Virus record (IMG/VR): IMGVR_UViG_3300020213_000123
Span: 1-22,276 of that record
Direction: 5' to 3' (one strand)
Length of the DNA: 22,276 nt
From: a virus
The notes beneath the pieces are model-generated. The model was not told the origin of the DNA. It saw nothing but the letters and a program-made list of their open reading frames with translations, and did not search any database. A program made the translations under genes and the position numbers. This document shows, piece by piece, positions 1-18,263 of this stretch (position 1 is its first letter; every line of letters begins with the position of its first letter).

Positions 1-2062
1 GCCATCAGGCGCAGCTACTGAAGCAACCCTGGTTACTAGGTTAGCTGAATCTACATTCACTGCTCGCATTAATACTTTGGGTCAGAAGACTATGGCCAAT
101 TCAACGCCAGTAGTTTTATCATCTGATCAATCTACCCTTCCAATTAGCGCAGCTTCTTTACCACTTCCTTCTGGTGCTGCCACCGAAACAACTTTACTTA
201 CACTATTAACTGCATCTACTTTTACTACCAGAATTAACACTCTGGGTCAGAAGACGATGGCTAATAGTACTCCCGTTGTTATTTCTTCCGATCAATCTAC
301 AATAACAATTACTGGCGCCGTCACTGTTACCGGAACAGTCACTTCCAATCAAGGAACGCCCGCCGCTTTAGCTAATGCTTGGCCTATTAAAATAAGCGAT
401 GGCTCTAATTATGCTCCTTTAACTAATGCAGCTCCCGTTGGAAACGAACAAGGTTTAGTAGTAAGAAATATTCCATCTGGAACGCAGGTTATCTCTGGAA
501 CTGTTACAGCAACCGTATCTGGAACGGTTACCGCCAATCAAGGTACACCTGCTTCACTAAGCAATCCATGGCCAGTTCAATTATCGAATGGCACTAATAC
601 TCCGATAATTACTAATACTACACCAGGTGGTTCTGATCAAGCTTTGGTTGTAAGAAATATACCGTCTGGTACACAAGCTATTTCTGCGGCTTCTCTGCCA
701 TTACCAACGGGGGCGGCCACCGAGGCAACATTAGCTACTAGGTTAGCGGAATCTACATTCACTACTCGTATTAATACTTTAGGACAAAAGACTATGGCTA
801 ATTCTATGCCTGTAGTTATTGCCTCCGATCAAACTACATTGGCTATTACTGGTTCAGTTTCGGCCACTCAAAGCGGAACTTGGACTGTTCAGCCTGGAAA
901 TACAGCGAATACTACTCCGTGGTTAACTACTATTAGTCAAGGAGGTAATGCAGCCACTGTAACTGGCGCTAATGCACTTAAGGTAGATGGTAGCTCTGTT
1001 ACTCAGCCCGTTAGCGGAACTGTTACGGCTAATATTGGCACTTCCGGCTCATTAGCTCTTGATGCATCTATTATAGCACAATCACTTATAGATAATAATG
1101 CGTTTACTGATGGTGTTACTAGAGTTCAACCAGTTGGATATATTTTTGATGAAGTAGCTGGTACAACTCTTACTGAAAATGATGCCGCGGCAGCTAGAAT
1201 CGATTCTAAACGCGCTCAAATTCAAGTAATTGAAGATGGAACTACTAGAGGCACAAGAGCTACGGTTAAAGCAGCTAGCACTGCCCCAGTATCTGGTGAT
1301 ACTTCATTAGTTGTCGTATTAAGTCCAAATCAACCACCTATTCTAGTCACAACATCTCCAAGTAGTTCAACTCCGCTTCTTGCTTTTGGTGATATTGCTT
1401 TAGCAGCTATTACAACCGTAGCATTACGTCGTACTACTTATACCGAGCAAAGCGTTAATTTTACTGGATCAATTGTTTCATCATCGGCAAATGATTCATC
1501 CGCAGGTACAGGCGCACGTACAGTTCGTATTTATTGGATGAATCAGGCAGGCGCCACAACTGGATTTGAAGATGTTACTCTTAATGGAGTTACTCCAGTT
1601 AATCTAGTTACTTCAACTAAATGTTTTATTGAGGCTATAGAGGTCTTAACAGTTGGTAGTACTAGATCTAATGCTGGAATTATTACTTTGAAAACGGGCG
1701 CGGCAGGAGCTGGCACAACTGTTGGAACTATTGGAGCAACAGATAACATTACATTTTGGGCCCATCATTATGTGAAATCAGGACTTACCTGTAATGTAAC
1801 GGGTATCCTTATAGGGTCTAACGTTACAAACAGTTCCGGTTCGTGTATTGGGTCTCTTCGTTCACAAGTATTGCCTGTTGCAGATCAAGTAGATAAGCAG
1901 GTTTCTGACGGAATTACAGTAGCTGGATTAGATAGTTCGGTATATCGTTCTTATGGTTCTCAGATTCAAGTAGCTGGCCCGGCACGTATTACTTTAATTG
2001 TTACCACTGCAACGGGTTCTGCATTTAATTATCGTGGCTCATTTGATGCCTATGAAAGCTAA
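1..2062 (+). CDS. Repetitive tail-fibre/virion protein, 5' end outside window
   Basis: The frame is open from base 2 with no stop, so the gene began upstream; a TTG at 77 lies inside a repeat unit and is not the start. About 686 codons are visible. The N-terminal part is modular: a ~51-residue unit containing GAATEATL and NTLGQKTMANS occurs three times (the first cut by the window edge), alternating with two copies of a TVTxNQGTPAxL...LVVRNIPSGTQ unit. The last ~210 residues, from about base 1420, form a beta-type domain with DSSAGTGARTVRI and LNGVTPVN motifs, shared with the next two genes. Composition (Thr, Ser, Ala, Asn) and the repeats indicate an extended trimeric fibre or adhesin; the receptor is unknown. 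The next gene starts 8 bases after the stop. Confidence 0.85.
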   Translation, partial: PSGAATEATLVTRLAESTFTARINTLGQKTMANSTPVVLSSDQSTLPISAASLPLPSGAATETTLLTLLTASTFTTRINTLGQKTMANSTPVVISSDQSTITITGAVTVTGTVTSNQGTPAALANAWPIKISDGSNYAPLTNAAPVGNEQGLVVRNIPSGTQVISGTVTATVSGTVTANQGTPASLSNPWPVQLSNGTNTPIITNTTPGGSDQALVVRNIPSGTQAISAASLPLPTGAATEATLATRLAESTFTTRINTLGQKTMANSMPVVIASDQTTLAITGSVSATQSGTWTVQPGNTANTTPWLTTISQGGNAATVTGANALKVDGSSVTQPVSGTVTANIGTSGSLALDASIIAQSLIDNNAFTDGVTRVQPVGYIFDEVAGTTLTENDAAAARIDSKRAQIQVIEDGTTRGTRATVKAASTAPVSGDTSLVVVLSPNQPPILVTTSPSSSTPLLAFGDIALAAITTVALRRTTYTEQSVNFTGSIVSSSANDSSAGTGARTVRIYWMNQAGATTGFEDVTLNGVTPVNLVTSTKCFIEAIEVLTVGSTRSNAGIITLKTGAAGAGTTVGTIGATDNITFWAHHYVKSGLTCNVTGILIGSNVTNSSGSCIGSLRSQVLPVADQVDKQVSDGITVAGLDSSVYRSYGSQIQVAGPARITLIVTTATGSAFNYRGSFDAYES
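2..838 (+). repeat. Three coding repeats of a ~51-residue fibre unit
   Basis: Copies lie at about 2-132 (truncated by the window edge), 146-297 and 683-838. Each encodes a GAATE.TL segment, then TLGQKTMANS, then PVV.xSDQ. DNA similarity is visible (for example the GGxCAxAAGACxATGGCyAAT stretch) but synonymous sites differ, so these are old, diverged repeats. Between copies B and C lie two units with NQGTPA and VVRNIPSGTQ, at about 322-488 and 511-672. Confidence 0.85.
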
Positions 2063-3858: not shown

Positions 3859-3872
3859 GTTCTATTAAAATT

Positions 3873-3901
3873 TTGACATGAATGGTGTAAGAACTTAATA
3901 C
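3873..3901 (+). promoter_or_regulatory. Promoter-like sequence before the TIM-barrel gene
   Basis: A perfect TTGACA at 3873-3878 is followed after 17 bases by TAATAC at 3896-3901, a weak -10 element with 3 of 6 consensus bases. It lies in the 68-base gap between two genes, and the downstream gene also has its own terminator, which supports an independent transcription unit. Assignment as a sigma-70-type promoter is tentative. Confidence 0.4.
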
Positions 3902-3926
3902 TAAACCAATGACAAAAGGAAACACA

Positions 3927-4844: not shown

Positions 4845-4870
4845 TCAAATTAAGTTTCTAGAATGATGAG

Positions 4871-4903
4871 ACGCCCGGTAGAAATACCGGGCGTTTCTAT
4901 TTG
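4871..4903 (+). terminator. Rho-independent terminator
   Basis: A perfect 10-bp inverted repeat, ACGCCCGGTA (4871-4880) and TACCGGGCGT (4885-4894), encloses a GAAA tetraloop and is followed by TTCTATTTG. It lies 26 bases after the TIM-barrel gene. The tail is interrupted by C and A but the stem is very stable. It is the only strong terminator seen in the window. Confidence 0.9.
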
Positions 4904-4944
4904 TGTGACTAATTTGATATATCATTAATAGCCAGTGGGGTTTA

Positions 4945-5805
4945 ATGAGAGTATTAGTCTTGAGCGGTGGCGGGAGTAAAGGTGCTTATCAGGTCGGCGC
5001 CCTCAAACACATCATTGGTGAGTTAGGTGTTGTTTATGATGCCTTTTGTGGCGTCTCTGTTGGGGCAATTAATTGCGCCTCTTTAGCTATGTTCTCTTCT
5101 GGACAAGAGGAGCAATCTATCTCTGTTCTTGCTGATATGTGGGCTAAAATAAATACCTCTCAAATATATAAGAGGTGGTTTCCATTTGGACGTTGGCATG
5201 CACTTTGGAACAAGAGTTTTTTTGATAGTTCTCCTATGCGCAATCTAATTAGAAACAGTTTAGATATTAAAAAGATTCGAGCTAGCGGTAAACCAATTAA
5301 CGTTGGTACCGTATCTCTTAGCTCTGGAAAATATACTATTTTTGATCAAACCTCAGATCATTTTATAGATGCCGTTACCGCCTCAGCCTCCTTTCCTGGC
5401 ATGTTAACTCCGGTGAAATTCCTGGGCCAATTGTGGACGGATGGAGGGGTAAAAGAAATATCTCCAATCAAGAAGGCCGTAGAGATGGGGGCGGATGTTA
5501 TTGATGTCATAATTACGTCTCCACATACACGTGTCAATAGATTTTTGGAAAATCCAACTACGGTTGATATTCTAAAACGCTCTATTGATCTATCTACAGA
5601 TAAAATTATGGCAAATGATATTGAGAAAGTTCAAATGCATAATGTGCTAGCTTTAGCAGGTCTGGAAGATAAAAGGTATGTCAAAATTAATATATTAAGA
5701 CCAGATTTCAATCTAATTGAAGATCTACTTGATTTCAGACCTGAAAAAATCCAAGAAATGATGGAAAAAGGGTATATGGACGCTAAAAACAAATACACAA
5801 TGTAA
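4945..5805 (+). CDS. Patatin-like phospholipase
   Basis: 286 residues. Patatin-family enzymes are serine lipid acyl hydrolases using a Ser-Asp dyad. All landmarks are present: the oxyanion loop SGGGSKGAYQ (residues 7-16), the nucleophile elbow GVSVG with Ser38, an ASASFPGMLTPV segment typical of the family, and the DGG motif with Asp166 (WTDGG). The length suits a single catalytic domain; no signal peptide or transmembrane segment is evident, so it should be cytoplasmic until lysis unless packaged in the virion. ATG at 4945 follows AGTGGGG with suitable spacing, downstream of the terminator, so it needs its own promoter; the gap contains TTGATATATCATTAATA but no clear consensus. Hydrolysis of host phospholipids during lysis or entry is a plausible role, not shown. 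Confidence 0.92.
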   Translation: MRVLVLSGGGSKGAYQVGALKHIIGELGVVYDAFCGVSVGAINCASLAMFSSGQEEQSISVLADMWAKINTSQIYKRWFPFGRWHALWNKSFFDSSPMRNLIRNSLDIKKIRASGKPINVGTVSLSSGKYTIFDQTSDHFIDAVTASASFPGMLTPVKFLGQLWTDGGVKEISPIKKAVEMGADVIDVIITSPHTRVNRFLENPTTVDILKRSIDLSTDKIMANDIEKVQMHNVLALAGLEDKRYVKINILRPDFNLIEDLLDFRPEKIQEMMEKGYMDAKNKYTM

Positions 5806-5814
5806 TAATTCTAC

Positions 5815-5831
5815 ATATCTAGTGGAGATAT
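5815..5831 (+). promoter_or_regulatory. Small hairpin holding a ribosome binding site
   Basis: ATATCT (5815-5820) and AGATAT (5826-5831) can pair around the loop AGTGG, placing the Shine-Dalgarno sequence (GTGGAGA) partly in the loop just before the ATG at 5834. The stem is six AT-rich pairs, so any effect on translation would be modest. Confidence 0.3.
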
Positions 5832-5833
5832 AA

Positions 5834-6187
5834 ATGGCTTTTAAGAACATCAAGAAAACCCAAGGTAGGGATTTTAACTTCTGGAATTCAACCGCTGTAA
5901 GCTGGGCGCAGTTTGGGGCACCAGATGGCTATACCCTTCTTGATGGCTATGGGCCTGATTTGGTTATTACTTTTCCAACTCAAGGCATCATGTTCACTAA
6001 TGAAACTTCAGCAAGCGTTGTAGAGTATTCGTTTAATGGATCTACGATTCATGGAGTTTTGGATGGAACTGCCGGCAGCACTACTCGCGTAGTTATGTTT
6101 GATAATCGTGTAGCTTCTTTGATTTGGTTTAGATTAAAATCAGGCGGCACAGCAACTATAACGACCACCGCGTGGGGAATACGATAA
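5834..6187 (+). CDS. Small probable virion protein, unknown function
   Basis: 117 residues; ATG 7 bases after GTGGAGA. It is not recognised as a named family. The sequence is beta-type, with alternating hydrophobics (DLVITFPTQGIMF, SVVEYSFNGSTIHGVL, TTRVVMF, SLIWFRLKSGGTATITTTAW), and looks like a small beta-sandwich such as those in phage decoration or tail accessory proteins. Residues 31-39 contain two DGY tripeptides six residues apart, a motif enriched in the structural proteins here. The final AWGIR after a run of Thr resembles the last strand of a sandwich. Its position after the patatin gene and before small accessory genes does not fix a role. Confidence 0.65.
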   Translation: MAFKNIKKTQGRDFNFWNSTAVSWAQFGAPDGYTLLDGYGPDLVITFPTQGIMFTNETSASVVEYSFNGSTIHGVLDGTAGSTTRVVMFDNRVASLIWFRLKSGGTATITTTAWGIR

Positions 6188-6206
6188 CTTGATATAGTAA
6201 GGTATT

Positions 6207-6539
6207 ATGGGAAAGAGTAAGCTAATCAAGAACAAGTGTGAGATCGAGACGTGCTCGATTACGGACCCTAACCTACTTCAATTGCATCATATTATAGAAA
6301 GAACGGAAGTCAATACTAATAATAACAATTTTAACCTCGCAATCTTGTGTGCCAATTGCCACGGTTTGACGCATAGTAGTAGGCTAAAGATTATTGGAGT
6401 TTACCCATCTACACAATTACCTAATGGTAGAACTTTGGTGTATGAGTTAGATGGTAAAAGAAATATTGAAGGTATTGATAAGCCTTACGTTAAGTTCGAA
6501 AATAAATCGTTCAAGTTACATGGAGTGAAGGATGAGTAA
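6207..6539 (+). CDS. HNH-type zinc-binding protein, putative endonuclease
   Basis: 110 residues. The core fits a treble-clef HNH fold: Cys11 and Cys16 (CEIETC), the His pair in LHHII (His27, His28), Asn43 in the NFNLAILC strand, and CANCHGLTH (Cys48, Cys51, His52, His56). This gives two zinc-binding Cys pairs plus the HH and N catalytic positions. The C-terminal half (residues 60-110) has no recognised domain and may bind DNA or a partner. Small free-standing HNH proteins are common phage genes, as mobile endonucleases or packaging and recombination accessories; which applies here is not visible. The gene overlaps the next by 8 bases (ATGAGTAA), so translation is coupled. Confidence 0.75.
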   Translation: MGKSKLIKNKCEIETCSITDPNLLQLHHIIERTEVNTNNNNFNLAILCANCHGLTHSSRLKIIGVYPSTQLPNGRTLVYELDGKRNIEGIDKPYVKFENKSFKLHGVKDE

Positions 6540-6852
6540 AATAGATAAGACATTCTTGAGAGATGTCGGTGGTACGGTAGAAAAGACAAATCTTGATGAT
6601 GCGGCTAATCTAAGTAACAAAGTGCTTCAAGAACAAGAGACTCGTCGTAGGCTCTTAGCCCATGCCAGAATTATTGGCTGTGAAAGAGATATGCTTTTGC
6701 TCTTTGCAAAATACGATAAATTGATGCGTAACTGCACCAACGATAAAGAAAGAGCAGATATTGCCAAACTTGGAGCTGTAGATACGTACAGACTATTGGG
6801 TGGCGGTGGGGAGTTGTACGTTGACGGACAACTTGTTTGTAAAGATAGTTAA
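6532..6852 (+). CDS. Hypothetical small helical protein
   Basis: 106 residues, starting inside the end of the HNH gene (8-base overlap). No family is recognised. The N-terminal ~75 residues are charged and predicted helical by eye (NLSNKVLQEQETRRRLLAHARI, then a DMLLLFAKYDKLMRN segment with Leu/Met spacing). The C-terminus has a GGGG turn followed by a short hairpin, ELYVDGQLVCKDS. There is no signal peptide or membrane segment. Tight linkage to the HNH gene suggests co-expression, but no function is proposed. The cold-shock gene starts 11 bases after its stop. Confidence 0.65.
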   Translation: MSKIDKTFLRDVGGTVEKTNLDDAANLSNKVLQEQETRRRLLAHARIIGCERDMLLLFAKYDKLMRNCTNDKERADIAKLGAVDTYRLLGGGGELYVDGQLVCKDS

Positions 6853-6862
6853 GGAATAAACG

Positions 6863-7096
6863 ATGAGTAATGAAAAATTTGTAGGTGAAGTTGTCTGGTT
6901 CGACCCTAAAAGGGGTTTCGGATTTATTACATGGGAAAAAGATGGCGAAAAACAGAAAGATCTGTTTGTTCACTTCTCTGATGTAGCTTGTGAAGGTTTT
7001 AAAACCTTATACAAGGGACAGAAAGTATCTTTTGGTCTAGGTACTAATGTACGTGGTGATCCAAAGGCTACAACTGTTGAAGTCCTAAAAAACTAA
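6863..7096 (+). CDS. Cold-shock-domain protein (CspA family)
   Basis: 77 residues, slightly longer than bacterial CspA (about 70). Cold-shock proteins are single-stranded nucleic-acid-binding OB folds that act as RNA chaperones. Both motifs are intact: RNP1 KRGFGFI (residues 16-22) and RNP2 LFVHF (34-38), after the usual N-terminal GEVVWFDP strand. Between the two lies WEKDGEKQK, a longer charged loop than usual. The ATG follows AAGGAAT with good spacing. A phage copy might assist translation or mRNA stability during infection, or prevent structured late mRNAs; this is inference from the family. The GIY-YIG gene begins 3 bases after the stop. Confidence 0.93.
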
Positions 7097-7099
7097 TCA

Positions 7100-7717
7100 A
7101 TGTATTGTGTAATTTACAAAATTAAAAATATTGTAAATGGGAAACTCTATATTGGGCAGACCTGGCGTACTTTAAAGAAAAGATGGTATGAACATTTAAC
7201 GCAATCTACTTGCGTTAAATTAGTAAATGCTATTTCCAAATATGGTAAAGAAAAATTCTCAATAGAATTAATAACTATTTGTCATACTCAGGAAACTGCC
7301 GATTATTGGGAGAAATTTTTTATTGAAAAATTTGATACCATTAATAATGGGTATAATTTGAAAACAGGTGGGTCAAAAGGTAAAATGTCTCAAGAAAGTA
7401 GATTGAAAATGTCTTTATCCCATATTGGTAAAAAATTATCAATTGAAGCTAAAAATAAAAAATCAAAGTTTATGTTGAATAACACTAATGCACTTGGTAA
7501 AAAGCTTTCTGATTACACTAAAAATAAAATGTCTATCAGTAAGAAATTATCTCAAAATGGTGAGGGTAATAATGCTTCCAAATTAACCTGGAGTATTGTG
7601 GAAGAGATAAGATCTTCAATAGAAGGTGCTAAAATTGTTGCAATTAGATATGGCATATCGCGCAGAACAATTTCAGATATACGATCTTACAAGACCTGGA
7701 AACTAATTACTTCTTGA
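7100..7717 (+). CDS. GIY-YIG homing endonuclease
   Basis: 205 residues. The N-terminal catalytic domain is clear: the VIYKI...LYIGQT strand pair (first Gly of GIY replaced by Val4), Arg28 and His32 in KRWYEH, and Glu71 in the DYWEKFF helix, followed by the usual NNGYNLKTGG. Residues ~95-150 contain NUMOD3-like short repeats (SQESRLKMSLSHIGKKLS and similar). The C-terminal region, ASKLTW...AIRYGISRRTISDI, is a helix-turn-helix of the type that follows NUMOD repeats and reads the target site. It is more AT-rich than its neighbours and has no visible Shine-Dalgarno before ATG at 7100. Its 3' end overlaps the convergent gene by 11 bases. It is probably a mobile insertion between the cold-shock gene and the minus-strand cluster. 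Confidence 0.92.
   Translation: MYCVIYKIKNIVNGKLYIGQTWRTLKKRWYEHLTQSTCVKLVNAISKYGKEKFSIELITICHTQETADYWEKFFIEKFDTINNGYNLKTGGSKGKMSQESRLKMSLSHIGKKLSIEAKNKKSKFMLNNTNALGKKLSDYTKNKMSISKKLSQNGEGNNASKLTWSIVEEIRSSIEGAKIVAIRYGISRRTISDIRSYKTWKLITS
7112..7138 (+). promoter_or_regulatory. Hairpin in the first codons of the GIY-YIG gene
   Basis: ATTTACAA (7112-7119) pairs perfectly with TTGTAAAT (7131-7138) across an 11-base loop. It starts 12 bases inside the gene, which lacks a clear ribosome site. Phage homing-endonuclease genes are often held translationally silent by early hairpins; this one is AT-rich and moderate in stability, so the role is tentative. Confidence 0.25.
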
Positions 7718-8000
7718 TTACGAATATTTGTATAATTTGGATTACTAGAGATAGTAATCCGGTGATGAATAGTATTTGAATTTTGAATAGGTCGCGGTTT
7801 GTTTCTTCGGCCTGTTTAACAATTTTATCAAGTTTTTCGTCTTGATCTTCTTGGATTTTCTTAATGTCTCTTAAAGAGTCAATGATTTCTTCATTTTGCT
7901 CAGCGACTTCTGACTGAATTTCAATAGTCTTTTTGTTGACTTCTAGAATTAACTCCAGGTCCTTTTTCTTTACAGTTTCATTGTTTAGTTTCTCAACCAT
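7707..8000 (-). CDS. Coiled-coil protein with C-terminal membrane anchor, XhlA-like topology
   Basis: 97 residues. Residues 1-70 are highly charged with heptad-like hydrophobics (LELILEVNKKTIEIQ, IIDSLRDIKKIQ, KLDKIVKQAEE), a probable coiled coil. Residues ~74-95 form one hydrophobic segment, ILFITGLLSLVIQIIQIFVI, ending in KK. This layout and length match the haemolysin XhlA-type holin partner of phages (short coiled coil plus one C-terminal membrane span), but the match is on topology only. On the minus strand a GAGGG sequence precedes the ATG by a few bases. It is the last gene of a three-gene leftward cluster and converges with the GIY-YIG gene. Other options: a membrane-tethered virion or superinfection-exclusion protein. 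Confidence 0.7.
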   Translation of the reverse strand: MVEKLNNETVKKKDLELILEVNKKTIEIQSEVAEQNEEIIDSLRDIKKIQEDQDEKLDKIVKQAEETNRDLFKIQILFITGLLSLVIQIIQIFVIKK

Positions 8001-8023
8001 CGGACCCTCAGCATATTTTAAAG

Positions 8024-8203
8024 TTATTTCTTTTTCCCTTTCCTACCCTTAATTTTTGATATGACATCATCAAGTTTGTCATTCAGCTTTTTATAATCTT
8101 CTATAGTCTCATTTTCCAAATCATCAATTGGTAATGGTTCTGTAACAGAAATTGTTTCACTTATACTTGCGGCGGCAGCAGCTATATTGCGTCTACGTGA
8201 CAT
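8024..8203 (-). CDS. 59-residue basic/acidic small protein, unknown
   Basis: An ATG on the minus strand at 8203 opens 59 codons to TAA at 8024. The Shine-Dalgarno AAAGGTG lies in the last codons of the upstream gene, 5 bases before the ATG, as in a normal operon. The product begins MSRRRNIAAAAASIS, continues with an acidic centre (IDDLENETIEDY) and ends with a basic tail (SKIKGRKGKKK). No family is recognised; it is likely a small helical nucleic-acid-binding or virion-core-type protein, but nothing proves that. The perfect fit between neighbours and the ribosome site are the main evidence that it is real. Confidence 0.7.
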   Translation of the reverse strand: MSRRRNIAAAAASISETISVTEPLPIDDLENETIEDYKKLNDKLDDVISKIKGRKGKKK

Positions 8204-8205
8204 GA

Positions 8206-8619
8206 TTACACCTTTTGGATCATAAGTTTCGTATCTGCATCAGCGGTCTCTGCATTTTCATTTGCAAAGATTTCATCAGATTTCTTTTGGTCATCTTCTG
8301 AGACATTAAGTTCTTCATAATTTTCTTCTTTAATGCTGAGCATAGATCTTTCTCTAGTTGGGATAAATGTTTCGCGGGTAAGTGGAATATTTGCTATTAA
8401 AACCTCTGGAGCGACCTTACGTACGATTATCTTATCTCTTTTCTTGAAGATAGAACCTGATTCAACGGATTTTTTAAGCTGATCAACCTTGTATTGATAA
8501 TGCTTTGTGTCCATTAAGTTAACTGAACTATACGCCTTTATTGTGAGATTCAAGTCAGCTAAACTAACATTCATCTTAGAGATGTTGGTTACCCAAAATG
8601 TAACTGCTTCTTTTTTCAT
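8206..8619 (-). CDS. Conserved-looking phage protein, probable virion or assembly component
   Basis: 137 residues, first gene of the leftward cluster. The N-terminal ~75 residues look like a compact beta domain: VTFWVTNISKMNVSLADLNL, then IKAYSSVNLMD, KHYQYKVDQLKKSVESGSI, and KKRDKIIVRKV. I have an impression of this pattern from short phage proteins but cannot name a family. The C-terminus (residues ~90-137) is acidic and probably disordered (EENYEELNVSEDDQKKSDE). On the minus strand AGGAATAAATC lies about 17 bases before the ATG, a rather distant ribosome site. TATAAT abuts the start codon but is too close to act as a normal -10. It diverges from the 8699 gene. Confidence 0.7.
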   Translation of the reverse strand: MKKEAVTFWVTNISKMNVSLADLNLTIKAYSSVNLMDTKHYQYKVDQLKKSVESGSIFKKRDKIIVRKVAPEVLIANIPLTRETFIPTRERSMLSIKEENYEELNVSEDDQKKSDEIFANENAETADADTKLMIQKV

Positions 8620-8698
8620 ATTATAATGTTGATTTATTCCTAAAAATTGGCGCTACTACTATTTAAGTATTGTATTGCTAGCGTATTTTAGGAGAATT
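8620..8698. promoter_or_regulatory. Divergent intergenic region between minus cluster and structural run
   Basis: This 79-base AT-rich gap separates leftward and rightward genes and therefore must contain or follow promoters for at least one direction. On the plus strand it holds AGGAG at 8690-8694 before the ATG at 8699. Candidate AT-rich boxes (TATTTAAGTATTGTATT) match no strong consensus, so no promoter is called within it. Confidence 0.4.
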
Positions 8699-9166
8699 AT
8701 GAGCAAAAGCAACACTTGGGAAACCGATCTATTAAAACTTGTATTTCAGAACATTGATGCCGCTCTAATTGGTGATGCAGTCGGACTTCGTGGCTCATCA
8801 ACTGCCGGAGTTCTTTATTTAAGCCTACATACAGCCGATCCTACCGAAGGGGGCGCTCAAAATAGTTCAGAGGCAAACTATACAAATTACACAAGAATTT
8901 CACTTGTAAGAAGTGCTGGAGCTTGGACTGTTACCGCTGTAGATGTTGGTCCCTCAACAGTATCTAATGCCGCTCAAGTTACCTTTCCTCAGGCAGGCTT
9001 AGCCTCTCCAACGAACGTTATTACACATGTAGGAGTTGGTACAGCTCTTAATGGCGGCGGTGGTAAGCTTCTATATTCTGGTATTTTGGCAACAGGATCT
9101 TTGACTGTTAATCAAAACATTACCCCAAGTTTTGGTACTGGACAACTAGTAATTACTGAAGATTAA
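8699..9166 (+). CDS. Tail-associated protein of a widespread phage family
   Basis: 155 residues from ATG at 8699 with AGGAG 4 bases before; an in-frame TTG at 8675 is upstream of the ribosome site and is rejected. The sequence follows a pattern common in phages: MSKSNTWETDLL at the start, LYLSLHTADP in the middle, YTNYTRISLVRS, then THVGVGTA, LLYSGIL and a C-terminal VITED. Proteins of this type are usually annotated as tail fibre or minor structural proteins; the fold is probably a small beta-sandwich. The next gene begins 14 bases after its stop. I am confident about the family pattern, less about its precise position in the virion. Confidence 0.8.
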   Translation: MSKSNTWETDLLKLVFQNIDAALIGDAVGLRGSSTAGVLYLSLHTADPTEGGAQNSSEANYTNYTRISLVRSAGAWTVTAVDVGPSTVSNAAQVTFPQAGLASPTNVITHVGVGTALNGGGGKLLYSGILATGSLTVNQNITPSFGTGQLVITED

Positions 9167-9180
9167 TAAGGGTGAACTAG

Positions 9181-12100
9181 ATGGTAGAGCAGTTCGCGAA
9201 TAATGCAGACTCCACATTAAATGGAGCAATCAACGACTCAACAACTTCTATTGTTGTAGTTAATGGTTCTTCATTTCCTTCAGTCGGCAATTTTCGCCTT
9301 TTAATTGGAAGTGATCCTGATACTGGTGAGCTTGTTTTAGTAACTGCCCGTTCTGTAAACACACTTACTGTTGTGCGTGGACAAGAAAGTACAAGTGCTC
9401 AGTCTTGGCCTGATGGAACAACAGTGACTCATATTGTTACTGCTGGTGCGATCATTACTCTTCGAGATACCCTTAAGGGTAAGACACTTAACTCATTATT
9501 AGAAACAATTAGTATTTCTCAAGATGGCTACGCGCTTACTTGGCTTAATACTGATGGTTATTGGGCCGCTCGTCCAGGTAGTCCATTTACAATTTCTGGA
9601 AACGAATTAAATACCACAAGAACACTATCAATTGATGGTTATGGAACTTTTACATCATCTCATTTTAATCCACAATTATATGTTAATGGTAATGTTCTTT
9701 CAAGCTCTTCTTTCTCAGTCGGAGACATACCATTAAGTACATCTACATATAATTATGTATCGGATGGGTATCAAACTTTCGTAGTTCCAACCGGCGTTAC
9801 CCAGCTTCAAGTTAAAATGTGGGGACCGGGCGCTGGCACGGGTAATTATAACAATGGTTATGGCGGCGCCTCTGGAGGTTATTCCACGGGATTTTTAACA
9901 GTTACGCCTGGTGAAACACTTGTGTTAGCTGTTGGTAGTGGTGGAAAGAAATCTGTTTCATCTACTGGTAATGGTGGCGCGGGCGGTTGGCCAAGTGGCG
10001 GTAATGGTTCTAGAGGCGATGCTTCCGCAGGCGGCGGTGGTGGTCTAAGTGGTGTTTTCACTACTTCTTATTCACAAGCTAATGCTCTTATGATCGCTGG
10101 CGGTGGTGGTGGATCTAGCGGATACACAGGTGGTGGAACACCAGGAGCTGGAGGAGGTTCTTCTGGTGCGGACGGCTCAGATCTCACTTCTGGAAAAGGT
10201 GGCACTCAAATCTTTGGAGGATTTGGAGGGGGCCCAGCCGTTTATACCGTTACACAAACTACTGGTGGAACTTATGAAACTGGCATAACAGATGTTGGCA
10301 ACCACACTGATGATAGTCCATTAACTGCTGTTGCATTGCCATTCTCTTTTGTATTTTATGGGGTATCTTATTCATCTCTTAACGTATCATCTAATGGTTT
10401 TATTAATTTTAATAGCTCTGATACTTCATATGCTTGGGATATTCCTGGAACCGCTCGTCCAGCAACTATTAATTTATGGAATAGGGATAATACTACTTCT
10501 GGCGGCGATAGAGGTTGGTATACTAAAACAATAGGAACAACCCCTAATAGAATTTTTGTTCTTGAATATAGAGGCTATCAACTTGGCACTGGAAATACCA
10601 TTAATGCAGAAGTAAAATTGTATGAAGGAACTACTACCTTCGAAGTTTTGTATTCAACATCTACTTCTATAGATACTTCTGGAACTATAGGTATACAGGA
10701 TAATCTCGGAGCACACTATACCATATATAATAACAACACGGCCCCACCTGCCAATGGAACTAGATTAGTTTATACTGCGGATGCAAATATTACTGGTAAA
10801 CCATTAGCTGGAGGTAGTGCATTTACCGATGTTACCACTTCACAAGCAAATGATGCTGGTGGTGGTGGTTCTGGTTATTTCGGCGGTGGTGCGGGTCAAG
10901 GTGACGGAAGACAGGGAGGCGGAGGTTCTGGATATCTTCATCCAACCAGAGTAACTAATGGTACAACTACTGCTGGAACTAATGGTGCTATTGGTGTAGT
11001 TGGTGCCGCTCCTCCTAGTGTTACTGATACCAATTATGTTGCTGGAATAGGTGTAGGTGGAGCCGCGACCGGAACAGGCAGTGATGGTGGAAATGGGCGC
11101 ATTGCTATCTCATATGGTAATAGCTCTAATTTAGCTACTAATTCACTAGTTTTGGGAAATAACGCCTCTCTTACTGCACCAGTTGGATATTCAGATTTGT
11201 ATCTAAATACATCTAGTGGCGGTAATATAGTATTAAATCCAAGTTCTGGATTAGTTACTTTACAGGGAACCTCCGCATTATCTTCAACCTCAGATTTAAT
11301 TTTGTCTTTTGCTAGCAGTTTAAAAGTTAGCTCTAGCTCAGTTAATAAATTCAAAGTTTACTCTACTGGAGCTGTTAATATTGGAGAAGGTACGAATAAT
11401 GATACTTCCTCAGAGGCCCAAGCAGGTCTTACTGGTCCGCTTATTAATCTTTCTCCAGCAACAGGAACATTTACTAGTACCACCAATCAAGCTTTAAATT
11501 TCAATATTGCAGGCGCGCATCATATTCAAGGTAATACTGAAGTTAGGTTTGATATCGCAGCAAATCTCGCCGGTTATTTTGACTCCAATAGAACATTTAG
11601 AATCGGCCCAAATGCTGCCACTAGTGCATCCGCATTTGGTGGTACTACCAATACTCCTTTTGCTGGGGATTTCATGTATGGCCATTCAACATCTGGAGAT
11701 TTGGTTGGAAGATTTGCAGCTAGCGCTTCTGGAAACATAGCTGCTATGGATTTTCTCAATACCACTGGTGGAGCAACCACCACTGTTATGATGAGAATTG
11801 GAGCTGCGGGCCCGACAAGTGGAGTTACGGCTTGGCAAAATAATGGAATTATTGAGCAAGGTGGAATTGCAACATCAGCAATTGTATTTACAAAAACAAG
11901 CGCAAATGGTTCTGTGCGTACTACGAGTGGACGTATCTATCAAAGCGGGGCCTGGTCAATTGGTGACGCCACTCAAAACGATACTTCGTCTGAAGCTCAA
12001 GCCGGATTAACTGGTCCGCTTCTTAATATCACACAAACGACGGGTGGTACATTAACTACCGTAGCTAATCAATCACTTATTTATAATGCAGCCGGGATTG

Positions 12101-13905
12101 CCATTCATCAAGGTCACTCCGGAGTTAATCTCATAGTTGGGACTACCACAGCACTAGCCGCAACCACAACTACAATTACTGCTCCTTCATATACTATTGG
12201 GACAAGTGGCCCCTCTATTACTACTGGTACAGGAGTTCCCGCTACAACAGTACCAAATGGCTCCCTCTTTTTAAGGAGTGATGGGGCTTCTTCAACAGCA
12301 ATTTATACTCGCCAATCTGGAGCCTGGGCAACGGTAGGCGCACTACCTGATGTTAATACATCAATTGCTGGGGGTATCCTTACCGTATCAAATACGGAAT
12401 TGATACCTACAACTAATGTTGTGGCAGCATCAACGCTTTATTATAAACCTTATCTCAGCGGACAAATTGCAATTTATGATGGATCAGCGTGGAATCTTCG
12501 CACATTTACATTTACTTCATTGGCTTTAACAGGATTAACTGCTGATAAAAATTATGATGTATTTATTAACTGGAATGGTTCAGCAATAGTTATTACATTA
12601 GGTGCAGCTTGGACTTCGGATACACTTAGAGCTGAAGCATTAGATATTCGTGATGGTGTTGTAGTTAAAACTGGCAATCATACCAAACGTTGGGTTGGAA
12701 CTATTCGAGCAAGTAGCGCAACTACAACCGAAGACACTCTACTAAAACGTTTTGTTTGGAATGCTTATAATGGAGCTATTAGAAAGTTCAAAGTAACTGA
12801 AAGTACTGCAAATTGGACTGATAATACTTCTGGTTGGCGTGCCGCAAGAAATCAAGCCACAAATGCCGTTGAATATGTTACAGGAGACGCTTCGTCTTTC
12901 TTAAACATGCAAACGTTCTCGCTATGCTCTTCTAGCGGCCCTAACGCCGCAGCCAGCGGTGTAGGCATTGATAGTACTACTGTAAATTCTGCCGATGTCT
13001 TTGGCGGAGTAGCCGTAACATCTGGTTTATTGCCTGTTACCTCTGCTTACGCAGGATATCCTGGACTAGGATATCATAAAATCACTTGGCTTGAAAGAAG
13101 CGACGGAAGCACCGTTACTTATTACGGTATTCATTCTGACGCGAGCGGGTTTCAATCTGGAATGACTGGAGAAATCTTTAGTTCATTAGTAAGTAGTGGT
13201 GGTTCTGCCCCCATTGCATCAAATGCATCAGTAGATTCAAATGCCGGGTTTTTTACTATAGTAGATAATGTAGCAGGTAATGGTTCATATCCAAGCACTA
13301 ACGCTACTAACTGGACTGGTACGTATTCAGCAGATGGATATAGTAGAGTGTTAATTATTGGTAGCGCCACGGGAGGTCAGTACTCGTCCGGAGGCCCAAT
13401 TACCCTTAATTTGAAAATTGACAATGTCACAGTTAGATCAGTCACTAGGTATGCCAATACTAATGGTATTCATGCTACTTTCCCTACATTAGTCCATTCA
13501 GTTATTTTATCAGCCGGTGATCATACTATTGCCTTAACACAAACTGGCTCTAATACATTTACTAATTCTGATAGTTATGCAAATTTGTATGTTTATAAGA
13601 CTCCAAGTATAACTAATATTAGTTGGGGCGCTACTAAAACATCTAACTATACTGCAACACCTGCTGATACTTATATTCCAGTAGATACCGCTAGTAATGC
13701 TGTTACAATTACTTTACCAGCATCTCCAGATAATGGAGAGCGTCATTTAATTGCTGATGTTGGCGGACTAGCAAGTATAAGTAATATTATCGTAGATGGT
13801 AATGGACACAATATTATCGGTGTATCGACATACATAATGACAGGCGCTTATAACGTATTAGAGGTTGCTTATCATTCAGGTAAAGCAATTTGGGTGATCA
13901 TATGA
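9181..13905 (+). CDS. Giant multidomain tail fibre/adhesin
   Basis: 1574 residues; ATG follows AAGGGTG. Visible order: a small beta module (residues ~14-80) with FPSVGNFRLLIG and LTVVRGQE; a short linker with DGYALTW and DGYW; a glycine-rich domain of the GGGGGSSG type (~200-350 and 536-645) interrupted by a beta domain (~352-535, FVFYGVSYSSLNVSSNGFINF, NRIFVLEYRG); a long Thr/Ser/Ala fibre region with two similar units (NDTSSEAQAGLTGPL at residues ~741 and ~934); a domain from ~1081 to ~1335 (YYKPYLSGQIAIYDGSAW, DGVVVKTGNHTKRWVGTIR, YPGLGYHKITWLE) widespread in phage fibres; and a C-terminal VTITLPASPDNGERH domain (~1490-1574). It is probably a host-binding appendage. The stop overlaps the next start (ATGA). 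Confidence 0.88.
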   Translation: MVEQFANNADSTLNGAINDSTTSIVVVNGSSFPSVGNFRLLIGSDPDTGELVLVTARSVNTLTVVRGQESTSAQSWPDGTTVTHIVTAGAIITLRDTLKGKTLNSLLETISISQDGYALTWLNTDGYWAARPGSPFTISGNELNTTRTLSIDGYGTFTSSHFNPQLYVNGNVLSSSSFSVGDIPLSTSTYNYVSDGYQTFVVPTGVTQLQVKMWGPGAGTGNYNNGYGGASGGYSTGFLTVTPGETLVLAVGSGGKKSVSSTGNGGAGGWPSGGNGSRGDASAGGGGGLSGVFTTSYSQANALMIAGGGGGSSGYTGGGTPGAGGGSSGADGSDLTSGKGGTQIFGGFGGGPAVYTVTQTTGGTYETGITDVGNHTDDSPLTAVALPFSFVFYGVSYSSLNVSSNGFINFNSSDTSYAWDIPGTARPATINLWNRDNTTSGGDRGWYTKTIGTTPNRIFVLEYRGYQLGTGNTINAEVKLYEGTTTFEVLYSTSTSIDTSGTIGIQDNLGAHYTIYNNNTAPPANGTRLVYTADANITGKPLAGGSAFTDVTTSQANDAGGGGSGYFGGGAGQGDGRQGGGGSGYLHPTRVTNGTTTAGTNGAIGVVGAAPPSVTDTNYVAGIGVGGAATGTGSDGGNGRIAISYGNSSNLATNSLVLGNNASLTAPVGYSDLYLNTSSGGNIVLNPSSGLVTLQGTSALSSTSDLILSFASSLKVSSSSVNKFKVYSTGAVNIGEGTNNDTSSEAQAGLTGPLINLSPATGTFTSTTNQALNFNIAGAHHIQGNTEVRFDIAANLAGYFDSNRTFRIGPNAATSASAFGGTTNTPFAGDFMYGHSTSGDLVGRFAASASGNIAAMDFLNTTGGATTTVMMRIGAAGPTSGVTAWQNNGIIEQGGIATSAIVFTKTSANGSVRTTSGRIYQSGAWSIGDATQNDTSSEAQAGLTGPLLNITQTTGGTLTTVANQSLIYNAAGIAIHQGHSGVNLIVGTTTALAATTTTITAPSYTIGTSGPSITTGTGVPATTVPNGSLFLRSDGASSTAIYTRQSGAWATVGALPDVNTSIAGGILTVSNTELIPTTNVVAASTLYYKPYLSGQIAIYDGSAWNLRTFTFTSLALTGLTADKNYDVFINWNGSAIVITLGAAWTSDTLRAEALDIRDGVVVKTGNHTKRWVGTIRASSATTTEDTLLKRFVWNAYNGAIRKFKVTESTANWTDNTSGWRAARNQATNAVEYVTGDASSFLNMQTFSLCSSSGPNAAASGVGIDSTTVNSADVFGGVAVTSGLLPVTSAYAGYPGLGYHKITWLERSDGSTVTYYGIHSDASGFQSGMTGEIFSSLVSSGGSAPIASNASVDSNAGFFTIVDNVAGNGSYPSTNATNWTGTYSADGYSRVLIIGSATGGQYSSGGPITLNLKIDNVTVRSVTRYANTNGIHATFPTLVHSVILSAGDHTIALTQTGSNTFTNSDSYANLYVYKTPSITNISWGATKTSNYTATPADTYIPVDTASNAVTITLPASPDNGERHLIADVGGLASISNIIVDGNGHNIIGVSTYIMTGAYNVLEVAYHSGKAIWVII
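11401..12030 (+). repeat. Two copies of a fibre unit ~193 residues apart
   Basis: Bases 11401-11448 and 11980-12027 encode nearly identical peptides NDTSSEAQAGLTGPL followed by [IL]NLS/NIT, a Thr-rich stretch, then TxxNQxLxxNxAG and a His-containing turn. Synonymous positions differ, so this is an old internal duplication in the long fibre gene. Confidence 0.75.
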
Positions 13906-14660
13906 GTTATCTTACAGACACAATACGAAGAGGTACATTTGCTAGCAGGCCAGCTACAGCTCCAGATGGAACGGTGTTTCTATGCACTGATGGTCCAGTG
14001 CAATTCGTAAGAAAAGGTGGAGCTTGGCAGCCTTATCATGGCTCTACAGCGTTAGCTCAACCAGCTGCTGCTTCTAATTTTACAATTAATCAAACTAGCA
14101 GTAATGGTACGCTAACAGATGATGCGGGTGGGTTATTTTTTACGGCTTTAAGTAGAGATGTTGGTGAAGATGTTATTTTTGCCACCCAAACTAATCCTGG
14201 TGGAACTGGAGCAGCTTATACATTAACAGTTGGGTTTATTCCAAATCCTGGAAGTAGAAATGGAACTGCTGGATGGTTTAATTATCATCTTACTGGAATA
14301 GGACTATATAATTCAAGTACTACTCAAATTAAAGCTCTAAGAGTTTATACTACGGGCACCGGAGAATTTCGCTTACAACTTATCAGTAAAACTGGGCTTT
14401 TGGGTAGTAGTTCAGCTTCTATTGACTATGGAGCATATTCTTTTGCATCCGCATCTATGGTGTGGTTTAGAGTTCAAGATGATGGAGTTACTAATAGAAC
14501 TTGGTCAGTTTCAAATGATGGTAAACATTTTAAAGCGCTTACAATTGAAGCAAGAACTACAGGATTTTCTAGTCAGCCTGATAGAATTGGAATATATATG
14601 AATGCATGGAATGCAGATGCAACAATGACTATTTTAAGCCATCAATTAACTAGTCCATGA
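13902..14660 (+). CDS. Lectin-like beta-sandwich virion protein
   Basis: 252 residues from the ATG at 13902, overlapping the preceding stop as ATGA, with GGGTGAT as ribosome site; the in-frame TTG at 13890 is less likely. The first ~45 residues (ATAPDGTVFLCTDGPVQFVRKGGAWQP) resemble phage appendage N-termini. The remainder looks like a concanavalin A-type jelly roll: GGLFFTALSR, YTLTVGFIPN, GIGLYNSSTTQIKALRVYT, MVWFRVQDDG, RTWSVSNDGKHFKAL, PDRIGIYMNAWN. Such domains bind carbohydrate in many phage fibres; no ligand residues can be assigned from sequence. The translational coupling to the giant adhesin suggests the two act in one structure, for example as tip or chaperone. Confidence 0.7.
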   Translation: MSYLTDTIRRGTFASRPATAPDGTVFLCTDGPVQFVRKGGAWQPYHGSTALAQPAAASNFTINQTSSNGTLTDDAGGLFFTALSRDVGEDVIFATQTNPGGTGAAYTLTVGFIPNPGSRNGTAGWFNYHLTGIGLYNSSTTQIKALRVYTTGTGEFRLQLISKTGLLGSSSASIDYGAYSFASASMVWFRVQDDGVTNRTWSVSNDGKHFKALTIEARTTGFSSQPDRIGIYMNAWNADATMTILSHQLTSP

Positions 14661-14670
14661 GGTAATGTAA

Positions 14671-15747
14671 ATGTCATTTGTTGGGCAATTAGGATTACGA
14701 GAAAGTCAACCAGGAAATATCCAGCTTGGAATTATTTCATCTGTGTCTTTGATTAGTGCACAGATTGATGGGATTTCGACTATCACTGCCTCTTTGGCTG
14801 CATCTGGTGCCTTAACTGCTCAAGTGGATAATATTGCAGCTATCGATGCATCGCTCATGGGAAGTGCTGCTACGAGCGCAACCATCGATAATGCGGCCAC
14901 TATCTCAGCTACTATTACTGGAATTTATCCAGCAGAGTCAACTATAAATGGATTTTCTAATACTTCGTTTTCTCTTTTAGCTACTGGAAATATGATAGTA
15001 GCTGTAAATAATATTGCAAATGTTTCTGCTAATCTTATAGCAAATGGAAGTTTATCATCTACTATTTCAAATGTCGCAACTGTTTCCGCTAACCTTATAG
15101 CAGATGGTATTATTGCAAGCACTATTCTAAATACATCGACAGTTAGCGTCGTAATTCAAGGACTCGGAAATCTTTCTAGTCAATCTGATAATCAAGGAAT
15201 CATGACTGGTTCTATTACCGGAACCTATTTGATATCTGCTTTAATTAATGGAACTTCAGGCATAGAGGCTAGTCTTAATGGTATTATTAATATACTTATT
15301 ACTATGAATGGTATTTCAACTGTTACTAGCAGCTTGGCTGGAATTGCTCCAATCAGTGCCACTGTCGATGGAACATCTGAATTTTTAATAGGCTATTCTT
15401 TTATAAAAGCAGAAATGGCAGGAACTTCTACCATATTTGCTAGATTATTTAATTATCTTCAAGATAAAGCTATTATAGATCCGATTGATCTAGAAGATAC
15501 TAATGTCTTTATTCATTCTCCGCCTACATCTCAATACATTAAAAAAATTATTATTGTAGATTCTATTGTTCCTCCAGTTGTGCCAGTAAATAATTCTATA
15601 ATGGCTTCTGGCAATAAACTAAATGGCCCATTCTCTTCCGTCCTTTTAAAACATATTGTTCCTCCTCCACCTCCAGAACCACCAGAGCCACCACCACTAC
15701 CTCCTGAAGATATTCCAATAGTTAGTTCGGGTATAAAAGTGCATTAA
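14671..15747 (+). CDS. Decapeptide-repeat virion protein with proline-rich tail
   Basis: 358 residues; GAGGT lies 8 bases before the ATG. After a ~29-residue N-terminus, residues 30-239 are about 21 uninterrupted repeats of exactly 10 residues, consensus A-x-[IL]-x-[GN]-x-x-x-[IL]-[ST], with odd and even repeats differing to give a 20-residue super-period. The regularity suggests a stacked beta-strand fibre or beta-solenoid. Then follow a shorter non-repeat region (IGYSFIKAEM, DKAIIDPIDLED), two hydrophobic beta segments (IKKIIIVDSIVPPVVPV, NGPFSSVLLKHI) and a proline-rich stretch, VPPPPPEPPEPPPLPPED, before the short end. No enzymatic motif is seen. It is probably a fibre, whisker or spacer protein. 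Confidence 0.75.
   Translation: MSFVGQLGLRESQPGNIQLGIISSVSLISAQIDGISTITASLAASGALTAQVDNIAAIDASLMGSAATSATIDNAATISATITGIYPAESTINGFSNTSFSLLATGNMIVAVNNIANVSANLIANGSLSSTISNVATVSANLIADGIIASTILNTSTVSVVIQGLGNLSSQSDNQGIMTGSITGTYLISALINGTSGIEASLNGIINILITMNGISTVTSSLAGIAPISATVDGTSEFLIGYSFIKAEMAGTSTIFARLFNYLQDKAIIDPIDLEDTNVFIHSPPTSQYIKKIIIVDSIVPPVVPVNNSIMASGNKLNGPFSSVLLKHIVPPPPPEPPEPPPLPPEDIPIVSSGIKVH
14758..15387 (+). repeat. About 21 tandem 30-bp coding repeats (10-residue units)
   Basis: Examples of successive units are AQIDGISTIT, ASLAASGALT, AQVDNIAAID, ASLMGSAATS. No insertion or deletion breaks the 10-residue register over 210 residues, although the DNA sequences have diverged strongly, so register is kept by protein structure and not by recent duplication. 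Confidence 0.85.
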
Positions 15748-15768
15748 ACAGCATAGTAAAAGGATAAC

Positions 15769-16122
15769 ATGAGCGCTACAGAACTTTATTATTTCCCAGG
15801 ACAAAAAGCCACAGTTTTTTTGGAAACTTTGAATGCTAGCGGTGTGCGCGCAGACGGCTACACTGCTCCTGATGGTTATCCAAGCATCACTAGAGTAATT
15901 TTCCCCGATCTTTCTTTGGCCTCCGCTTTCCCACAGAATATGGTTAAGCTAGATATTGGTCTTTATTTCTTTCAATTTACTTTGCCAACTGGAGCTGCAT
16001 CTGTCGGCAGCTACTTGGTAGATGGATATTATAATCTGCCAGGCACTGGTAATTATAGTAGGAAGTTATGGCAGATCATAGTAACAGCGCCGTTTGGTAA
16101 CTTCGGCACAACCTCAGGATAA
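15769..16122 (+). CDS. Ig-like small virion protein
   Basis: 117 residues; AAAAGGATAAC precedes the ATG. The whole protein is a single beta-sandwich: YYFPGQKATVFLETLNASG, ITRVIFPDLSLAS, KLDIGLYFFQFTLP, VGSYLVDGYYNLPG, RKLWQIIV. It resembles the Ig-like domains that precede or decorate phage tail and baseplate proteins. The next gene starts with a similar domain, so the two are probably paralogues and may occupy the same structure. Three DGY tripeptides occur (residues 29, 35, 85). The spacing of 2 bases to the next gene indicates co-translation. Confidence 0.75.
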   Translation: MSATELYYFPGQKATVFLETLNASGVRADGYTAPDGYPSITRVIFPDLSLASAFPQNMVKLDIGLYFFQFTLPTGAASVGSYLVDGYYNLPGTGNYSRKLWQIIVTAPFGNFGTTSG

Positions 16123-16124
16123 CA

Positions 16125-17024
16125 ATGGTAATCAAAGCACGTGGAGAATTGATTGACGTCACAGATCAAGTCAATTTAACTGTACAATTTAGAGATACTG
16201 CTGGGAGCCCAATCGATACCGATTCCTTCCCAACAATTTCTATTGTTCAACCAAGCGGCTTAGTAGCTATGGCTCCAACCTCTGCGGGAGTTGCTCGCAT
16301 TGGCGTTGGTAAGTATTCTTTTATCTACACCGTTCCTATCAATGGGCCTTATGGTGTCTTCAATGATGTTTGGGTTGGATTCGTTAATGGATTCAGAGTC
16401 CAAACTCAGTTTGATTTCGTAGTTCTTCATACTCAAGTCCCAGCCATCAACATCGATGGTTACGCTCATCTTGGAGATGATCCGGGCTTTCAATATTCAC
16501 AAGCTGCTATCAAGAACATCAACAAACTTCTTAAGTCTCTTAAAGCTAGATTAAATAGTTCAGGTAAAGCTAAAGCTACTGATAAATACGGTAACGTAGT
16601 TTATGTTGACTGTGATATCTTCTCGATAGACATGTTAGTTACCTTCTTGGCTACTGCTCTTTGGGATTTCAATCAAGTTCCATTCTTTACCTTCTTCCAA
16701 TTTGACGATGATAACTTCGTTGAACAATTTGGAGAGATCCTAGTAGAAGGGGCTACTCTTTATTCTTTGGCTTCAAAGTCTTTGATTGAAAGAGGTCGCG
16801 AGTTTCAAGTAACTGATAACGGATTGAATTTCAATCCTCCTACGGTCAGCGACTTGATGAATACGCAATACAGCGCCTTGCTTTCTCATTACTGGGAAAA
16901 GCTAAAGATGATTAAGGCAAGTCTTAGACCCGCCCCCAGAGGACTAGGCGTATTCTCAATGAACTCTGGTATCAATCCAGCCGTTGCTAGATTGCGTCAT
17001 CTAAGGGCCCGTAGAGTTATTTAA
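16125..17024 (+). CDS. Virion structural protein with Ig-like N-terminus and helical C-terminus
   Basis: 299 residues; GGATAAC before the ATG. Residues 1-105 form an Ig-like domain aligning with the preceding protein (TISIVQPSGLVAM, ARIGVGKYSFIYTVP, DVWVGFVNGFRVQ). Residues ~120-299 are mostly helical and non-repetitive: NINKLLKSLKARLNSSGKAK, a hydrophobic DMLVTFLATALWDF stretch, GREFQVTDNGLNFNPP, and an Arg-rich C-terminus, RLRHLRARRVI. The compositional change and conserved look suggest a true capsid/tail scaffold component and not a fibre; I cannot name the family. It uses more AAC, TTC and AAG codons than the fibre genes, consistent with higher expression. Its stop shares TTAA with the convergent gene. 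Confidence 0.75.
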   Translation: MVIKARGELIDVTDQVNLTVQFRDTAGSPIDTDSFPTISIVQPSGLVAMAPTSAGVARIGVGKYSFIYTVPINGPYGVFNDVWVGFVNGFRVQTQFDFVVLHTQVPAINIDGYAHLGDDPGFQYSQAAIKNINKLLKSLKARLNSSGKAKATDKYGNVVYVDCDIFSIDMLVTFLATALWDFNQVPFFTFFQFDDDNFVEQFGEILVEGATLYSLASKSLIERGREFQVTDNGLNFNPPTVSDLMNTQYSALLSHYWEKLKMIKASLRPAPRGLGVFSMNSGINPAVARLRHLRARRVI

Positions 17025-17635: not shown

Positions 17636-17680
17636 TGGGTCTCATTACATCCTATATCTGACTACGCAACTTGTCAATGA

Positions 17681-18235: not shown

Positions 18236-18263
18236 GGAGAGGCTAATAAATTAGAATAATAGT
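18234..18263 (+). promoter_or_regulatory. Strong but distant ribosome site with a foldable spacer
   Basis: GAGGAGAGG (18234-18242) is the best Shine-Dalgarno in the area, yet it ends 21 bases before the only usable ATG (18264); TAG at 18252 closes the frame upstream. The spacer contains CTAA (18243-18246) and TTAG (18251-18254), which could form a 4-bp hairpin with a TAAA loop and shorten the distance to 9 bases. The stem is weak, so the effect is uncertain. Confidence 0.35.

Follow-up and report, generated by a model that had tools for sequence, protein, structure and literature searches.

A beta domain of remote NIDO and RemZ kinship nested in the glycine-rich domain of a probable phage fibre protein

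Among the described systems closest to the locus studied here, the Pam3 fibre has glycine-rich loops that follow the fibre axis and a conserved stem, and the polar residues located at the hypervariable distal ends of its protein gp24 have been proposed to bind receptors, according to the excerpted text of PMC9608196. More generally, domain shuffling in phage receptor-binding proteins is well documented, as stated in the available part of PMC10684548. On the bacterial side, RemZ is a homologue of a Flavobacterium gliding adhesin and only its C-terminal domain is well resolved, while a paper cited therein describes RemA in its title as a lectin (excerpts of PMC10994853).

The DNA analysed here (the window) corresponds to a single virus record, 22,276 bases in length. 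Its open frame at 9181-13905, on the forward strand like all the parts described below, encodes 1574 amino acids and is a probable virion fibre or adhesin gene, whose role is suggested by a match to the Pfam family ALK_LTK_GRD (PF12810) above the cut-off and which adjoins a match to the head protein family phrog_240 at 8699-9163. Scans of viral contigs returned three close relatives of its glycine-rich domain, namely L001, L008 and L012, located on contigs of 204,387, 209,766 and 202,609 bases, respectively. A rescan with an alignment of the four sequences returned the same three contigs only; such scans need short exact patterns and can miss distant relatives. The N-terminal region (residues 1-189, positions 9181-9747) is probably the attachment end of the protein. 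Its residues 1-100 are 84% identical to L001, 76% to L008 and 82% to L012, and residues 45-91 match at 42% those of L006, an otherwise different contig. This region is followed by a TNF-like and glycine-rich domain in two halves, the first comprising residues 190-351 (9748-10233) and the second residues 536-645 (10786-11115), which ends in the closing strand IAISY. Each half aligns with its counterpart in L008 and L012. Between them lies the predicted beta domain of NIDO and RemZ kinship (residues 352-535, positions 10234-10785). The C-terminal remainder (11116-13902) is a mosaic between relatives, with identities of 31-67% to L001, L008 and L012 over residues 721-1110 and, among these three, an alignment to L008 only beyond residue 1110; no Pfam match was obtained for residues 651-1574. 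As a separate observation, the single window protein corresponds to two L012 frames (5518-8763, 1081 aa; 8748-10283, 511 aa), the shorter of which resembles by eye the C-terminal end of the window protein, so that, judging from the frames, the fibre gene seems to have been fused or split between these close relatives.

A sequence-only reading of the window had proposed that the glycine-rich region stops, gives way to a complete beta domain and then resumes with the NGRIAISY ending of the same domain. This course is borne out by the number of glycines per 50 residues, which amounts to 12-22 in the blocks over residues 201-350, falls to 3-7 over 351-550 and rises again to 13-18 over 526-650, as well as by the positions of the motifs, with FVFYGVSYSSLNVSSNGFINF at residues 390-410, RIFVLEYRGYQLG at 457-469 and NGRIAISY at 638-645. 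Window positions 10234-10785 are exactly residues 352-535, and alignment to relatives with an empty site extends the end of the insert to about residue 538 (base 10794). Further evidence comes from the relatives. L001 is 84% identical over 474 residues and has the insert, whereas the glycine-rich domain of L008 and L012 is uninterrupted and has a turn of about 10 residues at the corresponding point, so that two of the four copies in hand, the window included, carry the insert and two do not. The uninterrupted relatives that the reading had suggested looking for thus exist, two of three close relatives lacking the middle part, and PF12810 runs continuously through the site in both of them (L008: residues 175-412, profile positions 11-232, 47.3 bits; L012: residues 185-406, profile positions 11-220, 37.2 bits). 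The two window halves align consecutively on this single domain, rather than as two separate glycine-rich domains, which indicates at the level of sequence that both pieces belong to one PF12810 domain. The arrangement is more than chance, because the 84%-identical L001 keeps all of it while L008 and L012 miss precisely the middle part. Nesting of the insert in the glycine-rich domain is therefore well supported. Moreover, conservation within the uninterrupted domain is lowest at the turn that receives the insert: when L008 is compared with L012 in windows of 15 columns, the lowest identity (13%) falls on columns 167-181, and the 11 lowest windows (13-33%) all begin at columns 161-171, over the site.

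These data are probably best explained by an ALK/LTK-type tip domain that carries a NIDO/RemZ-type module in one of its turns, the module having been acquired once and exchanged between relatives. Residues 190-645 would form a single fibre-tip domain of the type found in ALK and LTK, which are animal receptor kinases, with a beta-sandwich extending into a bundle of glycine-rich segments, and a beta domain of about 184 residues would be inserted into the turn between two of these segments. By our own count, the L008 sequence has six glycine segments between two sandwich strands, and the insert comes after the third. Since odd-numbered segments would run outwards, this turn is expected at the distal end of the domain, and the insert would accordingly sit at the tip. 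The flank of the fibre, where the sequence-only reading had put it, is a doubtful location in view of this order of segments, which favours the tip.

The kinship of the insert was addressed through an alignment of 11 copies of its family, five from phages, five from bacterial metagenome-assembled genomes and one from Streptomyces. Of the seven bacterial loci considered, L027 was excluded for a stop within its match and L028 because the end of its contig truncates it. As for the eight viral loci, L014 and L015 are the L001 and L010 copies, L018 is the L013 copy, and L013 has a near-identical counterpart in L016. L017 entered the alignment, whereas L019, L020 and L021, with identities of 24-33%, did not and hence lie outside the scope of the tree described below. 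The NIDO alignment comprised 8 domains out of 20 loci from the phylum to which a Planctomycetota genome belongs, with matches at E up to 0.001 in 20 of its 199 genomes. When compared by hhalign, the insert family matched NIDO (PF06119) at 97.3%, with an E value of 2.3e-11 over 118 columns, while controls from the same phages gave 0.1% for the glycine-rich domain and 0.0% for the LamG-like proteins. The Pfam NIDO profile itself reaches two of the 11 family members at E up to 0.1, with a best value of 3.8e-4, and gives one match in five module-carrying bacterial genomes (E 0.0013, under the cut-off), inside the L025 copy of the module. Taken by itself, the window copy matches no Pfam family, NIDO included, at E up to 10, and for this reason the insert is called here a remote relative of NIDO, with which it shares common ancestry by profile comparison, and is not filed as a NIDO member. 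The nidogen resemblance that had been noticed in the middle part consequently holds, but remotely.

A second line of kinship leads to RemZ. Searched against the PDB sequences, the 11-copy profile matched residues 38-199 of 8gl6 chain D (E 1.5e-18, 70.3 bits), and the next match had an E value of 0.039. The chain is labelled RemA in the PDB and, on our own reading of the excerpted PMC10994853, is the RemZ of that paper, so that, by profile, the insert and an adhesin homologue have a domain in common. A solved structure was found neither for the insert domain nor, by profile at E up to 0.1, for any NIDO relative. We infer from this kinship that the insert is a surface-binding module which would add a second binding surface at the fibre tip, and whose gain or loss may change host-surface binding and thereby host range. 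The nested domain might instead be a spacer or stabiliser that stiffens or protects the tip and binds nothing, a reading favoured by those relatives of the module that accompany different domains in peptidases and further proteins secreted by bacteria. This explanation deserves serious consideration but is unlikely, given the kinship of the insert with NIDO and with the N-terminal part of a gliding-adhesin homologue, its place in the least conserved turn of a receptor-type tip and its presence or absence between close relatives.

Further copies of the module are found outside the fibre gene. Besides its fibre copy, the L001 contig carries a second one in a 504-aa frame, the L012 contig, whose fibre has no insert, carries one in a 505-aa frame, and two contigs of 36,632 and 480,838 bases carry one each (505 and 509 aa, respectively). 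All these non-fibre viral copies lie inside a protein with a LamG match (PF13385), at either of two points, namely a late position in L015, L016 and L018, where the module precedes a DLRIANVVR/DLRIANIAR segment, and an early position in L017, where it follows DLNLT. The late point is free of an insert in L017, as is the early one in L015 and L016. The L008 contig (G002) contains no copy of the module at E up to 10, and its LamG-like orthologue of 319 aa, which shares 54% identity with L016 across 207 of the 211 residues in the query, is uninterrupted at both points. In L016, PF13385 matches before the late point (residues 85-201) and not after it. In the uninterrupted orthologue the match stops at profile position 119, short of the late insertion point, so the alignment, rather than the profile, is the basis for nesting in LamG. 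PF13385 extends to position 148 of 151 in the LamG domain at the C-terminal end of the L008 fibre protein. In bacteria, the module stands beside other domains of secreted proteins (e.g., an S8 peptidase or a BNR protein) and is not visibly nested. A viral library yielded two matches at E up to 0.001, namely A0A6J5P7T5 from an uncultured phage (507 aa, 4.1e-8) and A0A879R3E6 from Synechococcus phage S-SRM01 (1.5e-4). From a plasmid collection, an S8 peptidase of Streptomyces clavuligerus was obtained in three records (E 8e-3). No tblastn match was obtained in the 'phages' collection, whether the query was the entire domain, the insert, the first of the glycine-rich halves, the L008 domain, the module copy from the LamG-like protein or either of two structural genes.

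Two observations concern the surroundings of these genes. Three LamG-like genes lie side by side in G001:C1:119333-122156, G002:C1:104755-107038, G003:C1:151990-154311 and G005:C1:379537-382327, and one of the three carries a nested module in G001, G003 and G005, while none does in G002. Moreover, the LamG-like proteins of L016 (36.6-kb contig 3300020213_001060) and L018 (202.6-kb contig 3300015360_000023) show 100% identity across the 211 residues that precede the module.

In a tree of the 11 copies, the five phage copies form one clade (support 100/99), within which the two glycine-rich copies (100/99) and the two late LamG copies (99/98) are grouped, and the early copy L017 falls outside the other four phage copies with a support of only 90/91. 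This topology is read most simply as a single uptake with subsequent moves to new sites. The module would have been acquired once by the virus lineage, from secreted bacterial proteins or sharing ancestry with them, and would now occupy at least three positions, i.e., the glycine-rich turn and two points of the LamG-like protein. Conversely, the ancestral fibre could have had the nested domain, the empty form of L008 and L012 being a deletion and the module not moving at all. In the fibre gene taken alone, two inserted alleles against two empty ones favour neither gain nor loss. Nevertheless, the module is also found at two further points of a second protein, each with empty homologues, and loss alone leaves three sites unexplained; in addition, the empty form follows the 243-position PF12810 profile from one end to the other, and this suggests that the empty form is the usual one. 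Thus, loss seems improbable to us, if still worth keeping in mind, and a single acquisition with later moves is preferred.

Structure prediction, which the sequence-only reading had recommended for residues 190-650, was carried out with AlphaFold2 on residues 185-650 (12 sequences) and gave a mean pLDDT of 52. It upheld the independent beta fold of the insert, and left the glycine-rich halves mostly below a pLDDT of 50; the closing strand IAISY was modelled as a strand (model residues 456-460), at low confidence. In the insert (model residues 171-350), 13 of 18 ten-residue blocks reached a pLDDT of 70-94 and the others 59-69, and the model consists of beta strands with no helix. The module was again predicted with confidence inside L016 (residues 212-391, blocks of 67-94), where the LamG part was left without a confident fold. 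The whole first model retrieved nothing from the PDB with Foldseek at E up to 0.001. With VIA-align, weak matches of the low-confidence part of the model were obtained to ALK (7nx3_F, Z 5.0, 80 residues, 3.0 A, model residues 1..464) and LTK (7nx1, Z 4.4, 2..466; 7nx0_B, Z 3.9, 2..462), and they draw residues from both sides of the insert. However, unrelated sandwich proteins such as galectins (1gan_A, Z 4.6, 1..462) and TRIM domains (9qba, Z 3.7, 1..466) also match across both sides, so that the ALK/LTK match is unspecific and, as far as such a low-confidence model part allows, the fold matches point to a sandwich closed by both ends rather than to ALK in particular. The PF12810 sequence match is independent of these fold matches. 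A resemblance of the insert to sandwich domains of carbohydrate-active enzymes (VIA-align Z 5-6) was too weak to be used.

The lack of a confident fold in the glycine-rich parts would also suit two independent glycine-rich domains with the NIDO-like domain between them, arranged in line without any nesting, and so would the failure of the second half, taken by itself, to match any Pfam family at E up to 10. In the whole window protein, PF12810 is the only Pfam match (26.1 bits against a cut-off of 24.5, residues 211-368), and residues 190-351 alone match it more strongly (31.6 bits). Yet this first half covers only positions 11-149 of the 243 in the profile, and the relatives with an empty site carry both pieces as one continuous domain, which already largely refutes an arrangement in line and makes it very unlikely.

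Comparison with a close relative shows both alleles in otherwise similar viruses. The window is 99.90% identical to the L012 contig (scanned as L062) over positions 2073-7071, 93.7% over 7701-9590 and 89-91% over 13262-19236. In the glycine-rich halves, the pieces that could be matched reach an identity of about 71%. At the protein level, the two halves are 87% and 87% identical to L001, and 65% and 58% identical to L012. This is the pattern that recombination of the fibre gene would be expected to leave, and alleles with and without the insert may therefore have been exchanged between close relatives by this route. Between the first two of these segments, the frame 7100-7717, which we take to resemble a GIY-YIG endonuclease, fills window positions 7072-7700, where the L012 contig has 19 bases. 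It lies at a possible recombination boundary, because the identity is 99.9% before it and 93.7% after it. Inspection by eye of the three insertions for target-site repeats yielded only a possible ACAACA at both ends in L017, which may be due to chance. That the insert is a selfish element, such as an intein or homing element, or else an assembly chimera, is improbable in the extreme: it is inserted in frame in one allele and the endonuclease-like frame ends about 1.5 kb upstream of the gene, but it has no Hint or endonuclease match in Pfam at E up to 10, which led us to reject an intein, its homologues occur in bacterial secreted proteins, and its presence at 80% identity on two different contigs (the window and L001) argues against a chimera.

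A further feature of these genomes is a strong over-representation of the tripeptide Asp-Gly-Tyr, which is seen 17 times in the window against 1.2 expected, or 3.2 with an expectation based on dipeptides. The 17 occurrences are distributed over six frames (5834-6187, 9181-13905, 15769-16122, 16125-17024, 18264-20228 and 20271-21983), all of them in frame and with varied codons, and none is found out of frame or on the other strand. The numbers seen and expected are 15 and 1.0 in L062, 14 and 0.85 in L001, 11 and 1.1 in L061, and 6 and 0.43 in L063, and the bacterial loci L022-L024 have 0, 0 and 1 occurrences. In alignments, the tripeptide replaces other residues after Asp (VSDGYQ/VSDTLQ; NDGYVW/NDILVY). 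It is a motif at the protein level, on which nothing was found in open-licence papers.

A bolder generalization can be offered tentatively, as a conjecture that we place slightly on the doubtful side of even: one adhesion module, taken up once by a jumbo-phage lineage, would be carried, nested like a cassette, into turns of fibre folds that are unrelated to each other (a glycine-rich tip and, at two points, a LamG-like protein), and its presence or absence at the tip would act as a natural host-range switch between close relatives. Whatever the fate of this conjecture, natural alleles with and without the insert constitute a clean natural experiment, in which a second binding surface would be gained while the fold is kept, and they suggest that the glycine-rich tip has a turn that accepts a folded insert. 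In addition, the copies assembled here give a handle on a NIDO/RemZ-related domain family that is largely missed by Pfam.

With respect to known systems, the tip domain can be compared firstly with the TG domain of ALK and LTK (PF12810; 7nx3, 7nx1), since a Pfam match above the cut-off is common to the window, L008 and L012, whereas the profile that the empty form follows throughout is interrupted in the window form. In the PDB sequence set, the L008 domain alone had no match and its alignment gave two matches at chance level. As in Pam3 gp24, with its TNF-like and glycine-rich domains, the beta-sandwich strands would run on into a glycine-rich lattice. Unlike the window fibre, Pam3 gp24 is not described in the excerpted PMC9608196 as having a second folded domain in a loop, and no open-licence paper was found that describes the nesting of a folded domain, NIDO-like or otherwise, within a glycine-rich tip of a phage. 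Secondly, the likeness of the insert to NIDO includes the NG..F segment and the acidic segment after it, while the first 45 columns of the NIDO profile stay outside the hhalign alignment, and the likeness to RemZ/RemA is confined to the matched N-terminal residues of what is, in that case, part of a secreted bacterial protein. Finally, the locus resembles the mosaicism of receptor-binding proteins, in which binding domains are shuffled between otherwise similar phages. This exchange is known mostly in the form of swapped fibre ends and, unlike the end domains dealt with in the available part of PMC10684548, here a whole domain, apparently of a binding type, is placed inside another one, within a turn of the tip domain.
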